NCBI GenBank assembly: GCA_031274495.1
Contig: JAISQB010000050.1
Location: forward strand, 1-32,572
Direction: 5' to 3'
DNA: 32,572 nucleotides
From: Campylobacteraceae bacterium
Lineage (GTDB): Bacteria; Campylobacterota; Campylobacteria; Campylobacterales; Campylobacteraceae
Position numbers and translations under genes: made by a program. The notes beneath the pieces are model-generated. The model had not been told where the DNA came from. It searched no databases and saw only the letters and a list, made by a program, of their open reading frames with translations. This document shows positions 25,900 to 32,391 of this stretch, piece by piece (the stretch's first letter is position 1; every line of letters starts with the position of its first letter).

Positions 25900-25924
25900 T
25901 TTTACTATGGTGGAAGTGAGGGGA
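25900..25924. repeat. Left attachment site (displaced ssrA 3' end)
   Basis: 25-bp copy of the ssrA 3' end and following bases, identical to 32011-32035 and in the same orientation. The match continues outward for about five bases (GGTGA) if one T is gapped. It contains 17 bases of tmRNA sequence including the CCA end but no upstream tRNA-like part, so it is a fragment left by integration, not a gene. Confidence 0.9.
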
Positions 25925-26016
25925 GCTACTGACAAACAGAGGGCTAAAAACTGTTATAAAGTACGATAAATACGGGCTTTTATAAGTAGTTTAAGGTTTG
26001 GAGTTTGGGGTAAAAG

Positions 26017-26033
26017 CTACCCTATGGCTACCC
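26017..26033 (+). repeat. Terminal repeat TACCC-N6-TACCC, left copy
   Basis: The 17-base CTACCCTATGGCTACCC occurs here, 92 bases inside the left att site. It occurs again at 31880-31896, about 115 bases inside the right att site, in the same orientation. It is itself two TACCC half-sites 11 bases apart. This fits an arm-type integrase or excisionase binding site. Confidence 0.6.
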
Positions 26034-26093
26034 ATCATCTAAAAAACTACCTCTTTTGAATGATTTTTGATGTCTGAAAGTTGCTTTGAATTG

Positions 26094-26099
26094 TACAAT
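26094..26099 (+). promoter_or_regulatory. -10 box for the 82-residue plus-strand gene
   Basis: TACAAT 24 bases before the ATG at 26124. No convincing -35 box at 17 bases. The leader carries GGAGGG. Confidence 0.35.
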
Positions 26100-26123
26100 A
26101 AAATTTCTTTCGGAGGGTTAAAT

Positions 26124-26372
26124 ATGAGTGAGATAGTAAAAGGTGTTGAAAACAACGATAATAAAACGCTTGTTTTGATAGATAAAGATGAGTGTTTAAA
26201 AAAACTCTTTAGTTGCTCTTGTATCCTTGCTACGCTAAGGCTTGCCACTAAATATGAAGATGAAATTGAAAGCATATATGTAGATGAAGTGATAAAGCCT
26301 GTTGAAGATATTCTTCATAACATATATGATGAGATTGAATTTCGCACGCCTAAAGGTGGGGGCGGGGTTTAA
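26124..26372 (+). CDS. Small protein of unknown function, only plus-strand gene
   Basis: An 82-residue soluble, acidic protein from the ATG at 26124, chosen because GGAGGG lies upstream at good spacing. It contains LVLIDKDECLKKLFSCSCIL then ATLRLATKYEDEIESIYVDE and ends in a Gly-rich GGGGV. Mostly helical by eye, with no membrane segment. I do not recognise the family. It is transcribed toward the lipoprotein gene, opposite to the rest of the element, so it is an independent unit. In phage satellites genes placed like this near an att site are often cargo, such as phage-interference or toxin genes, but nothing in the sequence shows that here. Confidence 0.65.
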   Translation: MSEIVKGVENNDNKTLVLIDKDECLKKLFSCSCILATLRLATKYEDEIESIYVDEVIKPVEDILHNIYDEIEFRTPKGGGGV

Positions 26373-26412
26373 CTTGTGGGTTGAGCTGGAACGCTCAAAG
26401 GCAATAGAGCAA

Positions 26413-26454
26413 TAGGCGGCGCGTGATGTTTTATAAGTCTTTAGCCGCCTCTTT
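26413..26454 (+). terminator. Candidate terminator after the small plus-strand gene
   Basis: Inverted repeat AGGCGGC (26413-26419) with GCCGCCT (26444-26450), followed by CTTTT on the plus strand. The loop is long (24 bases), which weakens the case. The right arm lies within the last codons of the convergent lipoprotein gene. Confidence 0.4.
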
Positions 26455-27099
26455 TAGCTTTGCCTGCTCCTTTTCTTTTGCTTGCCTTTCAGCTTCTAAG
26501 CGGATTTTTTCAGCAGGTTCTGCCGCCAATTTTGATAATTTAGAACTCTTTATAATCATACTACATTCAGAGTTTTTATAACAAGATGTGTTAAGTTTCC
26601 CACCGCCCCTTGTAATATATAAAAAGCTTGGAAAGGCTTTTGAGTAACTTCTATATTCTATGTTTTCTACTATTTTATCGCCCTCCATTCTGTATCCGCT
26701 CGTGTAACTTTCGGAATATGTATCTTCATAGTCAAAAAAGCTTGTGCCATACTTTTTTTTAATTGTTTGTAGTATCTTGTTGTTATTGCTTCTATTATGC
26801 AGTGTTTCATTCCCTTTAGAAAACTCATCATATTTTATTTCAGTCCAATAAAATTGGTTATCAAAAAAACGATATTCTATGCTCCTTAAATCCACCTCGC
26901 CTATCTTTAAAAGCTCATCTTTTTTGGTGGCTATCACCTCTTTTGAGGTTTTGTTATCGCTTATAATGGTGTGATTGCCAAGCTTTTCTATAGGCTCACC
27001 CCACTTCATATCACGAAAGCCAACGATGGGACTATTACCAAAGCAACCGCTAAACATAATACCCACTACAACCAGTAGCAAAAAACTAACCTTTTTCAT
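26431..27099 (-). CDS. Lipoprotein of unknown function, possible element cargo
   Basis: A 222-residue exported protein from the ATG at 27099, which has GGGGG at good spacing; a longer frame upstream lacks this. The signal peptide MKKVSFLLLVVVGIMFSGC ends in a lipobox with Cys at residue 19. The mature part opens VGFRDMKWGEPIEKLG, a pattern (F-x-x-x-KWG) seen in small periplasmic domains. It has several Tyr/Phe-rich strands, one Cys pair (TSCYKNSEC) and a charged helical tail (EKIRLEAERQAKEKEQAK). No function is recognised. Lipoproteins carried by prophages and satellites sometimes block superinfection; here that is only a guess from context. Confidence 0.7.
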   Translation of the reverse strand: MKKVSFLLLVVVGIMFSGCFGNSPIVGFRDMKWGEPIEKLGNHTIISDNKTSKEVIATKKDELLKIGEVDLRSIEYRFFDNQFYWTEIKYDEFSKGNETLHNRSNNNKILQTIKKKYGTSFFDYEDTYSESYTSGYRMEGDKIVENIEYRSYSKAFPSFLYITRGGGKLNTSCYKNSECSMIIKSSKLSKLAAEPAEKIRLEAERQAKEKEQAKLKEAAKDL

Positions 27100-27217
27100 A
27101 AAAGCCCCCTTGATGTTTATTTTCGTAAATTGTACATCTGAAAATGTTGATGATGTGTAAATTTGGGGGCAAAAAGGCAAGGACTATGACAAAAACAACT
27201 GACAAAATTTGGTTACA

Positions 27218-27240
27218 TTTGTTAATGTTTTTGTTGCTAA
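27218..27240. repeat. Iteron-like direct repeat, copy 1
   Basis: 23 bases beginning TTGTTAATGTTTTTGTTG, repeated at 27284-27306 with one mismatch (GCTAAA versus GTTAAA). Only two clear copies are seen, with AT-rich related sequence nearby. Confidence 0.55.
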
Positions 27241-27283
27241 AACCGTTGGTAATACGGGCTTTTGAGCATAAAAACAGTTTATT

Positions 27284-27306
27284 ATTGTTAATGTTTTTGT
27301 TGTTAA
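27284..27306. repeat. Iteron-like direct repeat, copy 2
   Basis: Second copy of the repeat at 27218-27240, same orientation, start-to-start distance 66 bases (about six helical turns). Confidence 0.55.
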
Positions 27307-27517
27307 AGTAAGGGCAAAAACGCTCCAAAGGCTGAAAGGTAAGCCGTTTTGTCTTGCCTTTGTCATAGTTTTTGTTTTAAAAAGTTTGGCGCGCATAAAA
27401 TCTTTGCTATATGCGCGGTACTGCGGGGCGGGGTCTGTAGAGATTTAACCCGCCCCTCCCTATGGTGTTTGGTGTCATACTTTGTAACACTGACTATGCC
27501 ACTTATCAAAGACTATA

Positions 27518-28024
27518 TCAAGGCGTGATAGCGTCTGTTTTGCTTGTCTGCGGTGCTGTATCGCTTTGTATGGCGTCTTTGTCTTGTTGGGTAGGCGCTT
27601 GTGTGTCTGTACCGTTATCTCTTTTAAAGGGGCGGTAGAGACCACTCAAAAAGGCTTTTAAGCCATCTATCCACCAAAGCGAAACACTATGTGTTTTTGT
27701 TTGCTCCTTGAGCTTCATTTGCCCTCTGGCGCGTGGATTAAGTCCAAGCCTATCAGAATAGGCTATGACTATCTTTTCGCACTTAAAGGCTAACTCTACG
27801 TTTTGATAGTTGATAGATAAGTTTTGCGGTGTAACTTTTATTGCCTCATTGAGTAGGCAATTGCAAAGCACCGAATAACGAACAAACCGTTTTATTACCT
27901 TTTGGTCTAACCGTTCGGTGATAACTCCTGTTTGCTCTAACTCTTTTGTAACATCTTGTTCTAACTCTCGCACAAGCTCATCAAACCCCGTTTGCTCTTC
28001 TTGCTGTTTTATTTCTTTTTTCAC
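27518..28024 (-). CDS. TerS-like protein 2 (P27-type small terminase domain, no HTH)
   Basis: A 168-residue protein paralogous to the C-terminal half of its upstream neighbour. It starts at GTG 28024 with AAGGAG six bases upstream. The shared core runs KELEQTGVITERLDQKVI, then AFKCEKIVIAYSDRLGLNPR and ARGQMKLKE. The layout 'leader helix - G-(V/L)-(I/L)-T-x-x-D - Y - LGL-x-P-x-AR' is the signature of P27-family phage small terminase subunits, which choose the DNA to be packaged. Unlike copy 1 it lacks the N-terminal helix-turn-helix. It has its own tail: WWIDGLKAFLSGLYRPFKRD plus a Thr/Gln/Asp-rich end. DNA identity to copy 1 is about 89 percent over 27703-27797. Family call is from memory of the pattern. 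Confidence 0.65.
   Translation of the reverse strand: MKKEIKQQEEQTGFDELVRELEQDVTKELEQTGVITERLDQKVIKRFVRYSVLCNCLLNEAIKVTPQNLSINYQNVELAFKCEKIVIAYSDRLGLNPRARGQMKLKEQTKTHSVSLWWIDGLKAFLSGLYRPFKRDNGTDTQAPTQQDKDAIQSDTAPQTSKTDAITP
27703..27797 (-). repeat. Duplicated terS-core segment (partner 28142-28236)
   Basis: A 95-base direct repeat at an offset of 439 bases with about ten differences counted by eye. A second conserved block lies near 27898-27952 and 28351-28405. It marks a tandem duplication inside the element with later divergence at both ends of the protein. Confidence 0.75.
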
Positions 28025-28088
28025 TTCATACTCCTTAGAATATTATTTGTATAAAGGCTTGCCATTAAGCAAAGCCACCTTAAACCTA

Positions 28089-28724
28089 TTACCTTTTTAT
28101 TATCCATTTCATCACGCCGCTATCATCATCCACCTCTTCTTGTTCCTTGAGCTTCATTTGACCTCTGGCGCGTGGATTAAGTCCCAGTCTATCGGAATAG
28201 GCTATGATTATCTTTTCGCATTTGAGGGCAAACTCTGCATAACGGTGAATGGTAGATAAGCGCTGTGGTGTAACTTCCGTGAAGTCTTGCTTAGCTGCCT
28301 CTTTGAGTAGATAATCACGGAGTGTTGAGTAGTAGCAAAACTGCTCTATTGCCTTTTGGTCTAACCGTTCGGTAATAACTCCTGCTTGCTCTAACTCTCT
28401 TGTAACGCTAAAACTAAGCTCTTTAGCCTTTGGGGCTATGATTACCTGTATCTCTGATAAGGTTCTAAAGCGGTTGGCTTTTACGGGATAAGCGTCTTGT
28501 TTTGCTTTTTCTATGTCACCGCCAAGCTTTTTAATCGTTTCAGCGTTTATAAATAGCTTGTTGCCCCTCCTTATGGTTTCTAACTCACCGCTTTTGATTA
28601 GCCTCCATACAGTCCGCTCTGTCTTTTCAAGTGCCGTAGCGGTCTCTTTGATGGTTAATTCAACCTCTTTTTTGCCTCCTTTGCTCTTAAGTGAAATAGT
28701 AGTTGCGTTGTTATTGTCAATCAT
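28089..28724 (-). CDS. TerS-like protein 1: helix-turn-helix fused to P27-type small terminase domain
   Basis: A 211-residue protein from the ATG at 28724, set by AGGAGG six bases upstream and an ATGA overlap with the rep stop; a longer frame upstream lies within rep. Residues about 20-70 form an HTH_17/MerR-like domain (LTIKETATALEKTERTVWRL, then GELETIRRGNKLFI). Residues about 95-195 carry the small terminase pattern: IIAPKAKELSFSVTRELEQA, GVITERLDQKAIEQF, and AYSDRLGLNPRARGQMKLKE. Small terminases bind pac/cos sites through an N-terminal DNA-binding domain; an excisionase-type helix-turn-helix in that place is unusual. In satellites a private TerS redirects the helper phage's packaging motor. 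Confidence 0.68.
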   Translation of the reverse strand: MIDNNNATTISLKSKGGKKEVELTIKETATALEKTERTVWRLIKSGELETIRRGNKLFINAETIKKLGGDIEKAKQDAYPVKANRFRTLSEIQVIIAPKAKELSFSVTRELEQAGVITERLDQKAIEQFCYYSTLRDYLLKEAAKQDFTEVTPQRLSTIHRYAEFALKCEKIIIAYSDRLGLNPRARGQMKLKEQEEVDDDSGVMKWIIKR

Positions 28725-29599
28725 TTTTTGCCTCCTTTTTGGGCTATTTTTGGCTGTAAACTTAAATCGCCTTTTGAATGCCGTTGTGGTGGGGGTTTGT
28801 GGCTTGTTTGTGTTGCATTTTGTACCAATATACTTAATAGACACCAGTCCACCTGAAACTTAAGGCGCGGTTTTAATGTTTTTTGTGTAGCTTGACCGCG
28901 CTTTTTTTGAGGCTCATTACTAAATGCTTTTTGGATGGTCTTATTACACGCTGCGATAACCTCATTGATACTATCTAATCTTTTAAGCCTTGCCTTACAA
29001 AATGAAAACTCCAGACGATAACAAATGTGTTTGGCTTTGTCTGTCTTATGATAGTGTTTCACATTGTAGTACGTGTTTGTCCGCCCCTCTTTGGCTGTTT
29101 TTAAGTAGATGGTATTCCAACGGCGGTATAGCTCTCTTTTGAGCCTGTGGGCTATTGTAGATACATTAAAGGGCTTGTTGCTATCAAAGGCTATATCAAG
29201 GCGTGAGAATTTGAAGCTATCTTGTCCGATGAGGTTAATAACCTCTTGCAAATCTTCACACATAGGAGCGTCAAAGAGGTTATATTGTTTTAAGCCTTGA
29301 AATGTTAGCGTGTAATCCTTTTGGCGTTTATGCTGCGTGATTTTATACCTACAACCTCGCGGGCTTATTAAGATAGCCAAATAAGAGTAAAGCGCAGGTT
29401 TAAATGCGTTTTGTGGCTTTTTGCCTTTTGCTTTAACACTTGCTTTGCCTCTTTTGGGCTTGAAATAGTCGTTTATAAGCTCTTGGTTAAAGACAAGGTG
29501 ATTTTTAACGGTCATCATCTTAAAGCCTGCCGCAGTGCGTAACTTATCCAAAATGGTATCATTAAAATCAAGAGCCACACTATCAATAAAGCCTCTCAT
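28721..29599 (-). CDS. Rep_trans-type replication initiation protein
   Basis: A 292-residue protein. It has the features I associate with Rep_trans/phage-type rolling-circle initiators: DSFKFSRLDIAFDSNKPFN (R-x-D-x-A-x-D motif), then NTIYLKTAKEGRTNTYYNVK with YHKTDKAKHICYRLEFSFCK, corresponding to the T-I-Y...Y-x-K...R-x-E-x segments of the family. The nicking Tyr is probably one of the Tyr residues in the TIY or YYNVKHYHK stretch. The C-terminal 90 residues are basic and of unknown role. The ATG at 29599 overlaps the preceding gene by 17 bases; the stop overlaps TerS-like 1 in an ATGA. It would allow the excised element to replicate. Confidence 0.7.
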   Translation of the reverse strand: MRGFIDSVALDFNDTILDKLRTAAGFKMMTVKNHLVFNQELINDYFKPKRGKASVKAKGKKPQNAFKPALYSYLAILISPRGCRYKITQHKRQKDYTLTFQGLKQYNLFDAPMCEDLQEVINLIGQDSFKFSRLDIAFDSNKPFNVSTIAHRLKRELYRRWNTIYLKTAKEGRTNTYYNVKHYHKTDKAKHICYRLEFSFCKARLKRLDSINEVIAACNKTIQKAFSNEPQKKRGQATQKTLKPRLKFQVDWCLLSILVQNATQTSHKPPPQRHSKGDLSLQPKIAQKGGKK

Positions 29600-29810
29600 T
29601 GCAAAGGGCTAAAAACTCTTTAGCCCTTTTGTTGCTGATAATGCAAAATATACGGTGGTTACCCTGCCAAATTGCGCCGCAAATGCCATCATCTCTTAAC
29701 TGCTTTAGGTAGAGATTGGCGTTTGAGATGTCAAACTCTTTGGCTGTTACCCATACGCGCTGTTTCATTGCTTTTAAGAGCGTGAGTTTGTGTTTTAGTG
29801 CTTTGCTCAT
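29583..29810 (-). CDS. Small winged-helix-like protein
   Basis: A 75-residue basic protein from the ATG at 29810, with GAGGTG upstream. Residues about 15-60 read MKQRVWVTAKEFDISNANLY, LKQLRDDG and IWQGNHRIFCI, which looks like a winged helix: recognition helix followed by a beta hairpin. It stands between the AlpA-like gene and rep with 8- and 17-base junctions, so it belongs to the same transcript. A role as replication accessory or regulator is likely from position; the family is not recognised. Confidence 0.6.
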   Translation of the reverse strand: MSKALKHKLTLLKAMKQRVWVTAKEFDISNANLYLKQLRDDGICGAIWQGNHRIFCIISNKRAKEFLALCNERLY

Positions 29811-29818
29811 AGTTCACC

Positions 29819-30016
29819 TCAACTTGCCGTCTTAGTTAGGTGTTGCTCCATAAACTTTGTAAGTTCGCTTATGGGGTATAAAACCTTTGAGTTTTTGCCC
29901 TTGCCGCTTTTAAAATAGCGTGCGCCTAATCCATTAGACCTTAACCGCTGAAGTGTCGTTGTCGAAATGCCAAGATATTCCGCCGCTTCTTTGGGTGTCA
30001 AAGTCATTTTACCCAT
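29819..30016 (-). CDS. AlpA-like helix-turn-helix regulator/excisionase
   Basis: A 65-residue protein from the ATG at 30016, with AAAGGA upstream. It is a single HTH_17 domain: MTLTPKEAAEYLGISTTTLQ RLRS, then a basic wing GARYFKSGKGKNSKVLYPIS and a helix ELTKFMEQHL. AlpA-type proteins act as excisionases and as activators of integrase or replication genes in prophages and Gram-negative satellites. It is the first gene of the alpA-HTH-rep-terS-terS block. The terminal TACCC repeats near both att sites are plausible targets. Confidence 0.75.
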   Translation of the reverse strand: MGKMTLTPKEAAEYLGISTTTLQRLRSNGLGARYFKSGKGKNSKVLYPISELTKFMEQHLTKTAS

Positions 30017-30224
30017 AGTAAAATCCTTTATATGTCAAATTAAGGGTTTTAAAGCCCTGATGAAATGGTGGCATATGGCGGAATTTAGGGTCAAAGCTCT
30101 TCCGATTATTTATCGGAGGTGGCTGTATTGCGGGTTTAGGTGTGTTTTTGTATGGTACGATGAGGTAAAGCGCTCAAAGGCAAATGATGGATATATGGGG
30201 GTTTGGCGTGGTTTTTTTATGATA
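30017..30224. other. Gap between the 187-residue gene and alpA, with hairpin
   Basis: About 200 bases. It holds an inverted repeat TCCGAT (30101-30106) with ATCGGA (30112-30117), loop five bases, extendable by two pairs, and a shorter GGG/CCC repeat near 30042-30058. No T-run follows on the minus strand. The promoter for alpA is expected here, but I see no clear -35/-10 pair. The 13-base CGCTCAAAGGCAA at 30171 also occurs near 26391. Confidence 0.35.
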
Positions 30225-30788
30225 TTAGTCTGGGTCAAGGTGTTTTATAAGCTCTGTTATAGCGCTATTGCTAACATTATGAGACTTTAAAAACTTGCGT
30301 ATCGGTTCAACATTGGCTTTTATTTTGAGTATGTGGTTTGGAAAGTACTTATCAATATCTTGTATATATCTATCAATATCACTTATAAGCTGCTCTCTTT
30401 TGTTGGAATATGAAAGGACTTCTAAATCCTCTCTTATTGCTCTAAACCTTTCAATATTGATTTGCCGTATCTTTTCTATAGAGCGATTTTGTAGCTTTTG
30501 TTTGTGGGCTTTCGTTGGGGCGGTAAAAGCTTTCCATATCTCTTTTGTTCCCTTTGCGGTTAGATAATCAAAAATCATTGCGATAAGCTCTTTGAGTATC
30601 TTTTTTTTATTTCTTTCGCTTCGGCTTTCAATGTGATAATGCCACCCCATTAAAAAATCAATCGTTTTATCGTCTATTTTGCTTTTTACCTCTTCTATGG
30701 GCAACTTTTTTATTGTTTTTTTAATAAACAGCTCTATATTATCTTTGGGTGCGTTTTTAAACATTAAAACTAAATCATTAAAATTCAT
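30225..30788 (-). CDS. Unknown 187-residue helical protein coupled to the integrase
   Basis: A basic, almost fully helical protein with no membrane segment or signal peptide. Segments: MNFNDLVLMFKNAPKDNIEL, TIDFLMGWHYHIESRSERNK and a long helix region around SIEKIRQINIERFRAIREDL, likely coiled coil. No family recognised. Its ATG overlaps the integrase stop in an ATGA, so it is made together with the integrase. Candidate roles, from position only: recombination directionality, replication control, or interference with a helper or competing phage. Confidence 0.7.
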   Translation of the reverse strand: MNFNDLVLMFKNAPKDNIELFIKKTIKKLPIEEVKSKIDDKTIDFLMGWHYHIESRSERNKKKILKELIAMIFDYLTAKGTKEIWKAFTAPTKAHKQKLQNRSIEKIRQINIERFRAIREDLEVLSYSNKREQLISDIDRYIQDIDKYFPNHILKIKANVEPIRKFLKSHNVSNSAITELIKHLDPD

Positions 30789-31861
30789 AGCCTTAGCCCC
30801 CTTACTGCGTCTAATCCATTATCAGAGGCAAGCTTCGCATATCTTAGTGTGTCTTTGATGTCTTTATGGTCTAAGAGCTTCATTATCGTAAATATCGGAA
30901 TGCCATTGATGGCTAAATGACTGGCGAATGTGTGGCGTAATGTGTGAATAACTACACGATTTTTTGTGTCTTTGTTGTTTAAACCTTGATTGAATAGTCT
31001 GTTTAGGGTTGTCTGTATCGGTCTTTCTATCGTGTGGTAATGGACGCCAACAACTTTATCATTTGGGGTGGATAGCTCTTTGAGGCGTTTTACCAATAGT
31101 GAGTAAAGACTATCACTAATAAAGCCCGTGTAGTCATTCTTTGCTTTAAAGTTTCGGAGATTAATACTTTTGGCGTTGAGATTAATATCTTTCTTTTGTA
31201 TTTCCATTATCGTGTTAAACCGCGCTCCAGTGCTTAATGACAACTCCACAAACAACAACCGCATTGGATGGTCTTTAACGGCTTCTTTGAGCTGCCTAAT
31301 CTCATTGACACTTAAATATCGGTCTCTTTTACTATCGCCTTTGGGCTTATCTACTTTTTTACAAGGATTAAGCCCCTTAAACAGCTCTCTATCAATCGCA
31401 AAGTTAAACACGGCGCTTATCCTTTGAAGATAGGTAATTACCGTTCGTGGAGCTTTACCGTTTGCCGTGAGGGTATTTTTTAGTTTATTGATAGTATCAA
31501 CAGTTATTTCGTCTAACTGGCTATTCCCAAAGATATTTTCAATAGCTCTGTACTGTGAAGCCACCTTTTTTACCAACTCCTTATGTTCTATATACTGACA
31601 AACAGCGTCTTTAAAAGTTACCCCATCCTTTTGTTTGTATTTGGCAAGCGGGGATATATCGCCAAATTTAGCTTTGTTGATAAACACATTTCTTTGTAGG
31701 TGGCAATAAGCTATATTTATATTTTCGCTCTCTTTGCCTATCTTTACCCACTTCTTTTTATTGCCATCTTTGTAAGTTATGTAAAAACTCTTATCGCCAT
31801 TGATAAGGTTTTTGTGATATATGCCATCATATTTAGTACTACTTTTGATGTAACCGCTCAT
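30785..31861 (-). CDS. Tyrosine recombinase (integrase)
   Basis: Site-specific recombinase that integrates and excises the element, 358 residues. It has an arm-binding N terminus (FYITYKDGNKKKWVKIGKES), a SAM-like core-binding domain (about 80-170), and a catalytic domain with Arg214 in STGARFN, a Lys near 239-241, His306-x-x-Arg309 in HTLRHTF, His332 in LLDHKD and the nucleophile Tyr341 in TLRYAKL. All residues are intact. The ATG at 31861 has AAGGAG seven bases upstream. It is next to the ssrA att site and transcribed away from it, in the same direction as ssrA. Its own promoter lies just upstream. Confidence 0.93.
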   Translation of the reverse strand: MSGYIKSSTKYDGIYHKNLINGDKSFYITYKDGNKKKWVKIGKESENINIAYCHLQRNVFINKAKFGDISPLAKYKQKDGVTFKDAVCQYIEHKELVKKVASQYRAIENIFGNSQLDEITVDTINKLKNTLTANGKAPRTVITYLQRISAVFNFAIDRELFKGLNPCKKVDKPKGDSKRDRYLSVNEIRQLKEAVKDHPMRLLFVELSLSTGARFNTIMEIQKKDINLNAKSINLRNFKAKNDYTGFISDSLYSLLVKRLKELSTPNDKVVGVHYHTIERPIQTTLNRLFNQGLNNKDTKNRVVIHTLRHTFASHLAINGIPIFTIMKLLDHKDIKDTLRYAKLASDNGLDAVRGLRL

Positions 31862-31879
31862 TATTCAACTCCTTTTAGA

Positions 31880-31896
31880 CTACCCTATGGCTACCC
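31880..31896. repeat. Terminal repeat TACCC-N6-TACCC, right copy
   Basis: Identical 17 bases to 26017-26033. On the minus strand it reads GGGTA-N6-GGGTA and starts about two bases after the integrase -10 box, so it covers the transcription start. A protein bound here could both recombine the ends and repress the integrase gene. Confidence 0.6.
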
Positions 31897-31898
31897 TA

Positions 31899-31927
31899 AT
31901 TGTATCATAATTGGTTTTGATTGGCAA
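31899..31927 (-). promoter_or_regulatory. Integrase promoter
   Basis: Minus strand: -35 TTGCCA (31927-31922), 17-base spacer, -10 TACAAT (31904-31899). Five of six matches in each box and ideal spacing. The start point would fall inside the TACCC repeat, about 30 bases before the ATG. Confidence 0.65.
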
Positions 31928-32010
31928 TAGTTGATTTTTTATGGTATAATCACAAAGTACGATTTTAAGGGAGTTTTGAGGGCTTTTTAGGTCGTTTAAG
32001 GTTAGGTGAT

Positions 32011-32035
32011 TTTTACTATGGTGGAAGTGAGGGGA
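32011..32035. repeat. Right attachment site (ssrA 3' end)
   Basis: 25 bases identical to 25900-25924. Positions 32019-32035 are the 3' end of the tmRNA including CCA, and 32011-32018 lie just downstream. Integrases targeting ssrA typically use exactly this part of the gene. Confidence 0.9.
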
Positions 32036-32391
32036 ATTGAACCCCTGTCCAAAAACAAGCCCCATCTTGACGTCTACATGCTTAGAAGGATTGATAAATC
32101 TTTGCTTTTGTTTCACTCAATCCGCGAAGGCTACACAAAAGCGCAAACCTGAATGTCAGCCTGACGGCGGTTAGATGTCCGGCTTAAGCTATCTGTTTTT
32201 TGAGCCTTGCAAAACCCGCTTAGATAGCATCCGCGGTGCAAAGCCTCCTTAAGAGTTAAACTTACGCGATTTTTGCGTAAGCAGGAGCGTAATTTTTGTT
32301 ATTTGCGTCTAAATTTATGAACTTTTTACGCTCTGTTCAAAGCGGCATGCAATCAAGACCAACCTGCTCCTGTCGAAGCCAAGTCACTCCC
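32019..32391 (-). ncRNA. ssrA: Transfer-messenger RNA (tmRNA)
   Basis: Rescues stalled ribosomes by acting as tRNA-Ala and as mRNA for a degradation tag. The 5' end GGGAGTGACTTGG and the 3' end CACTTCCACCA pair as a seven-base acceptor stem (GGGAGUG with CACUUCC, one G-U). The T arm reads GGGGTTCAATTCCCC, and GGTTCGAATCC-like identity is clear. Length 373 bases. The tag frame at 32262-32306 reads ANNKNYAPAYAKIA followed by TAA. The gene is intact despite the element in its 3' end, because the att copy restores the sequence. It starts one base after the trpA stop codon. No terminator is visible downstream. Confidence 0.95.
32262..32306 (-). CDS. tmRNA proteolysis tag
   Basis: Fourteen codons from the resume codon GCA (32306-32304) to TAA: ANNKNYAPAYAKIA. 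The ANN start and APAYAK core fit epsilon-class tags. The C terminus is Ile-Ala instead of the Ala-Ala I remember from most species. Confidence 0.85.
   Translation of the reverse strand, partial: ANNKNYAPAYAKIA

Follow-up and report, generated by a model that had tools for sequence, protein, structure and literature searches.

Rep_trans initiators and MOBT relaxases nick DNA at sites in which CTAA lies in the loop of a GC-rich hairpin, and this nick hairpin is described as paired with an inverted-repeat binding site (PMC9371924). In ICESt3, according to the same source, 12 bp are flanked by a perfect 7-bp repeat, and the binding repeat lies 68 bp downstream (PMC9371924). The Rep_trans motifs are printed as RxD, TxY, YxK and RxE in PMC5714925, and at the pC221 origin, as outlined in PMC5775427, cruciform formation controls nicking. 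The origin described for PICIs consists of two iteron sets flanking AT-rich DNA located 3' of rep (PMC6092414).

We analyzed a window of 32,572 nucleotides from a Campylobacteraceae genome (contig JAISQB010000050.1), which carries an island of ~6.1 kb (25900-32035) integrated at the tmRNA gene. Within the island lies a spacer, 27184-27517, which the original prediction had put forward as a candidate replication origin or packaging site. The island resembles pT181-family plasmids and their Rep_trans initiators (RepDE, RepSTK1) in the predicted fold of its Rep (Z 10.1 and 7.9), in its active-site motifs and in a CTAA hairpin beside the rep gene, a candidate nick site. Unlike these plasmids, it is integrated in the chromosome together with an integrase, and its Rep does not match PF02486. 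With ICESt3, Tn916 and ICEBs1, which use MOBT relaxases, it shares a Rep_trans-like enzyme in an integrative element as well as GC hairpins, but at 6.1 kb it shows no conjugation genes and its spacer hairpins lack CTAA. Likewise, PICIs combine an integrase, AlpA, a replication gene and terS in a small element, whereas this island encodes a probable rolling-circle initiator of the Rep_trans type rather than Pri-Rep with iterons, and no helper phage is known. P4-like satellites and PICMIs have in common with it a small size, an AlpA-like regulator and an integrase; in contrast to them, its genes include no P4-type primase-helicase and it carries small terminases. Of the features that define PICIs and phage satellites, the island shows att sites, an integrase, AlpA, a replication gene and the lack of structural genes; induction and packaging by a helper phage would be a further one. 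Among the titles and abstract openings of the literature searched, we found no description of such islands in this group.

The island, its Rep and its relatives

The features of the island are as follows.

25900..32035, integrated island, bounded by exact 25-bp direct repeats (25900-25924 and 32011-32035), at the 3' end of the tmRNA gene
25947..26122, noncoding stretch beside attL, the best conserved of its kind across the island family (~71-81% in four related islands)
26124..26372, plus strand, short gene at the left end of the island, recognized partly by inspecting the comparison of related islands
26431..27099, minus strand, lipoprotein-like cargo gene downstream of the spacer, matching no family
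27518..28024, minus strand, terS2, tandem duplicate of the terminase part of terS1, without the HTH
28089..28727, minus strand, terS1, HTH and P27-type small terminase domain
28721..29599, minus strand, rep, encoding a probable Rep_trans-type rolling-circle initiator (motifs RLD135, T163xY165, Y183xK185, R195xE197)
29583..29810, minus strand, small protein, kept upstream of rep in related islands
29819..30016, minus strand, AlpA/Xis-like HTH_17 protein
30785..31861, minus strand, tyrosine integrase (PF00589, 1.5e-22)
32019..32391, minus strand, tmRNA gene, the integration target

The right 25-bp repeat overlaps the 3' end of the tmRNA gene, which alone among known RNA families passes its cut-off. 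A gene of 187 aa is also listed on the minus strand between the integrase and the AlpA-like gene. An exact 17-bp direct repeat (26017-26033 and 31880-31896) lies just inside both island ends and may represent integrase arm sites.

Sequence searches with Rep against Pfam, PHROG and PDB returned nothing useful, no Pfam or PHROG model being matched, and the PF02486 profile matched none of 12 Rep family members at E 1. Thus, Rep is better said to work like a Rep_trans protein than to be a member of the Pfam family. An alignment of 12 Rep relatives shows that D135, D139, T163, Y165, Y183, K185, R195 and E197 are invariant. The resulting motifs (RLD135, T163-I-Y165, Y183-H-K185, R195-L-E197) fit RxD, T/SxY, YxK and RxE with the catalytic tyrosine; conservation does not extend to the additional G in motif II or E in motif III. 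The structural model (pLDDT 72.8, pTM 0.68) aligns with RepDE (4cwe) at Z 10.1 and rmsd 4.9 over 185 positions and with RepSTK1 (4cij) at Z 7.9, unrelated structures reaching at most 6, and Foldseek ranks 4cij first (E 2e-6). Since both the motifs and the modelled fold agree, Rep very probably acts as a Rep_trans-type initiator of rolling-circle replication, in line with what the original prediction had guessed. Searches of plasmids, genome contigs and viral contigs recovered no Rep.

Searching 153 genomes of the bacterial family with Rep and the integrase turned up related islands. They encode the same integrase, AlpA-like and small genes, and most lie beside tRNA genes. Islands of this family (5-6 kb, with integrase, AlpA and Rep) recur in the genus, and their initiator, probably of the Rep_trans type, has diverged too far to be picked up by profile libraries. 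The cargo after rep differs from island to island, placing the spacer in a variable slot. The islands L061-L065 carry YefM/YoeB-like toxin-antitoxin pairs (Pfam check in L064 only). Other related islands carry zinc-ribbon proteins; an Ogr/Delta-like label for these was withdrawn, as Pfam points weakly to an NrdR-like ribbon.

One member of the family, the island studied here, adds phage small terminases; the related islands have no TerS. TerS1 scores 29.3 bits against PF05119 (Terminase_4), above the cut-off of 24.7, so the guess of a small terminase gene near the spacer proved right, whereas TerS2 scores 15.6, under the same cut-off. TerS1 finds a match in one of the 153 family genomes, its own, and PF05119 occurs in one of 14 genus genomes. 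Searching 398 genomes of the order, together with viral contigs and phage records, gave a single weak partial TerS match, in one other genome (31%, residues 19-122), and yielded neither a helper phage nor a close TerS relative for comparison. TerS2, which lacks the DNA-binding domain in this tandem pair (27518-28727), could alter packaging specificity or poison the terminase of a helper.

The spacer at the end of the rep-terS operon

The spacer and its boundary contain the following features.

27172..27376, long imperfect inverted repeat of 205 nt, with a closing stem on ACTATGACAAA / TTTGTCATAGT
27219..27241, plus strand, direct repeat, copy 1
27285..27307, plus strand, direct repeat, copy 2
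27390..27417, hairpin of 8 bp with a 12-nt loop lacking CTAA, followed by CCAAACTTTTT on the minus strand
27425..27456, hairpin of 8 bp, all G/C, with a 16-nt loop lacking CTAA
27504..27550, minus strand, rep-gene fragment, matching rep of sibling island L012 at 38/47, in frame, and the island's own rep (29182-29206) at 24/25

Much of the original description stands. Two perfect 8-bp hairpins lie 7 bases apart, one of them made of G and C only, and exceed chance: among 2000 dinucleotide shuffles of 27184-27517, at least two perfect 8-bp hairpins arose in 1.1% and two hairpins with GC-rich stems in none. When the window was scanned in 334-base pieces, two such GC hairpins appeared only in pieces covering this stretch. 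The 23-base direct repeat is present at the predicted distance of 66 bases, start to start, with one mismatch between the copies (22/23 bases agree); no shuffle out of the 2000 gave a 23-mer repeated with at most one mismatch. Folding, suggested in the original prediction, revealed what it had missed, namely that the direct repeats sit within the 205-nt inverted repeat (z -4.4 as DNA, -4.5 as RNA). The whole stretch on the minus strand folds with z -6.5 as DNA and -3.2 as RNA. Elsewhere in the island, too, and even within the terS2 coding sequence, sliding-scan values with RNA parameters go down to z ~-3, hence the folding signal of the spacer alone is not special.

Other parts of the description need correction. 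The stretch was called noncoding; it does contain two reading frames, of 70 and 80 aa, that overlap, although they match no family with confidence. It was placed next to rep, but rep ends at 28721, 1.2 kb away, past terS1 and terS2. Termination was dismissed for want of a T-run; the GC hairpin indeed lacks one, but in gene direction TTTTT stands five bases past its neighbor, 27390-27417 (CCAAACTTTTT). Two further candidates were rejected: a small peptide gene, having no convincing family match, and a mobile hairpin element (MITE), the stretch being single-copy in the genome. Loops 27398-27409 and 27433-27448 show 6-base complementarity (AAATCT / AGATTT), noticed by eye, and might form a kissing contact.

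We favor, with moderate confidence, the reading that the stretch is the 3'-end spacer of an operon and occupies the cargo slot, which varies, of a small satellite-like island driven by a Rep_trans-type protein. The spacer would end the minus-strand operon rep-terS1-terS2, with the cargo gene next. The tandem hairpins would most likely act in the transcript, where they may shape or protect the 3' end of the operon mRNA, and the second of them (27390-27417), with its trailing T-run, may partly terminate transcription ahead of the cargo gene. On this reading the long AT-rich inverted repeat would be additional spacer sequence, and the rolling-circle origin would more likely reside at the hairpin immediately ahead of the start codon of rep. 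Positions, predicted structures, gene identities and the absence of conservation are observed here, whereas mRNA protection or termination, and the place of the origin, are inferred.

Several observations argue for this operon-end reading. The spacer directly follows the last gene of the operon and precedes a codirectional cargo gene; T5 trails the second hairpin in gene direction; and the minus strand folds as RNA (z -3.2). The stretch is not conserved, a better origin candidate exists at 29603-29629, and hairpins are enriched upstream of rep across the island family, as detailed below. At the corresponding site after rep, the DNA of related islands is unrelated in sequence, and some of it carries terminator-like hairpins of its own, e.g. 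L013 7743-7782, followed by CCTTTTTT. Against it, a terminator scan called neither spacer hairpin. An intrinsic terminator is a GC stem with a short loop directly followed by a T-run, whereas the loops here measure 12 and 16 nt, which is long for such terminators, and T5 comes five bases after the second stem. Moreover, termination accounts for neither the direct repeats nor the long inverted repeat, and part of the terS2 coding sequence gives an equally strong folding signal. After rep in L015 (8005-8110) we observed promoter-like sequence, a GC-rich structured stretch and a terminator-like hairpin, with a fold z of just -0.8.

Searches for homologues of the spacer were negative at each level. 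No counterpart was found in 12 related islands or in 152 other family genomes. A 431-base spacer query against the 153 family genomes gave a best outside match of 43 bases (E 4.5e-6) and no homologue; of four outside matches fetched, three lie in coding genes, one at a gene end and none in an island, and they were rejected as homologues. Comparison with 29 noncoding segments of this and the related islands in both orientations gave 2 of 58 results at p <=0.02, in unrelated places, as expected by chance.

Possible packaging or recombination at the spacer

Alternatively, the spacer could be a pac or cos start read by TerS1 and acquired in a single cassette with both terS genes, which we consider unlikely. 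TerS (one of 153 family genomes, PF05119 in one of 14 genus genomes) and the stretch (none of 152 others) are both unique to this island, they are adjacent, and TerS1 retains its HTH domain. However, the site lies downstream of terS, whereas known pac and cos sites are mostly upstream of or inside terS, and the searches gave no helper phage or close relative of TerS for comparison. The fragment at 27504-27550 is a further objection. It encodes the RLDI motif, lies at the 3' end of terS2 and has unrelated DNA on either side; the sibling island L012 whose rep it resembles belongs to the same genome, and none of 300 shuffles gave any pair like its 24/25 match to the island's own rep. Its presence at the terS2/spacer boundary points to recombination there rather than to one clean cassette.

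A fuller version of the packaging reading, in which TerS1 and the HTH-less TerS2 would read the hairpin and inverted-repeat cluster as a matching cis site and load Rep_trans-made DNA into helper capsids, is in our view very unlikely. If true, it would describe a satellite that joins rolling-circle replication to its own packaging specificity.

The same rep fragment, 47 bp long at the boundary of unrelated sequences, could instead mark a recombination scar, the spacer being leftover DNA of another element that was joined there and has no function now. A stretch that is single-copy in the genome and missing from relatives, in a cargo slot that varies among islands, is consistent with such a scar, but DNA out of use should decay, and here both perfect GC-rich hairpins and the 205-nt inverted repeat are intact. 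We regard this as quite improbable.

Candidate replication origins

Placing the rolling-circle origin in the spacer itself would have Rep nick one of its hairpins and use the direct or the long inverted repeats as binding site. Rep is very probably an initiator of the right type, and by analogy the anatomy is loosely like that of known MOBT/Rep_trans sites such as ICESt3, as described in PMC9371924. However, the closest Rep relatives (L012, L014, L018) show no conservation of the spacer, and lack of conservation in related islands is the very finding that the original prediction had named as speaking against an origin. Because, in addition, CTAA is absent from the loops of both spacer hairpins and the spacer is 1.2 kb from rep, an origin there is weakly founded and distinctly unlikely; the hairpin at the rep start fits better. 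The spacer does not resemble an iteron origin of the PICI type either: instead of two iteron sets flanking AT-rich DNA 3' of rep, it holds a single repeat in two copies, plus weak additional ones, and follows terS2, not rep. Thus, the premises of the original prediction, a Rep_trans-type Rep and a small terminase beside the stretch, hold, while its placing of the origin in the stretch is not supported.

The better candidate is the following.

29603..29629, perfect 11-bp hairpin with a 5-nt loop, set 3 nt ahead of the start codon of rep, the strongest hairpin of the island

This is the sole bearer of CTAA among six strong hairpins of the island, and we consider it more likely than the spacer to be the double-strand origin. 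Its CTAA falls in the stem of the full 11-bp hairpin and would sit at the loop edge if the lower 7 bp alone pair. Across 13 islands, 9 of 45 hairpins contain CTAA, as compared to 1 to 8 for other letter orders, so that CTAA is not clearly enriched. Within 400 bp upstream of rep, 8 hairpins were observed versus 3.1 expected (P 0.014) in 12 islands, some rep start codons being our own choice and L012 omitted because its contig starts inside rep. Both hairpin counts leave aside L019 (a distant Rep relative), L066 (a contig fragment) and L067-L070 (integrase only).

Even if the packaging reading is false, the family offers candidate origins: this CTAA hairpin, a repeat in one Rep clade and a motif before rep in another. 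The 23-bp repeat CCTATTAAGTTAATCAACAAAAC occurs in 12 copies in total, always in gene direction, upstream of alpA and in or after rep.

L013: 6973, 7114, 9525
L015: 8284, 8442, 10043
L016: 7073, 7348
L017: 7247, 8269, 9785
L066 (fragment): 47

Outside islands, no copy was found in 14 genus genomes; the L066 copy lies at a contig end, and this window contains none. Confined to one Rep clade and one contig fragment, CCTATTAAGTTAATCAACAAAAC is a candidate origin. In L013 it falls within a segment longer than 100 bp that is duplicated.

A different 23-bp motif, AAAAATACCCCTTGTTATTTAAA, which is absent from this window, lies between the small gene and rep in all five islands of another Rep clade.

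L061: 6687, 1 mismatch to the consensus
L062: 3113, 0 mismatches
L063: 3544, 1 mismatch
L064: 6267, 1 mismatch
L065: 3701, 4 mismatches

In these five islands, AAAAATACCCCTTGTTATTTAAA may be partly coding, within a small frame.
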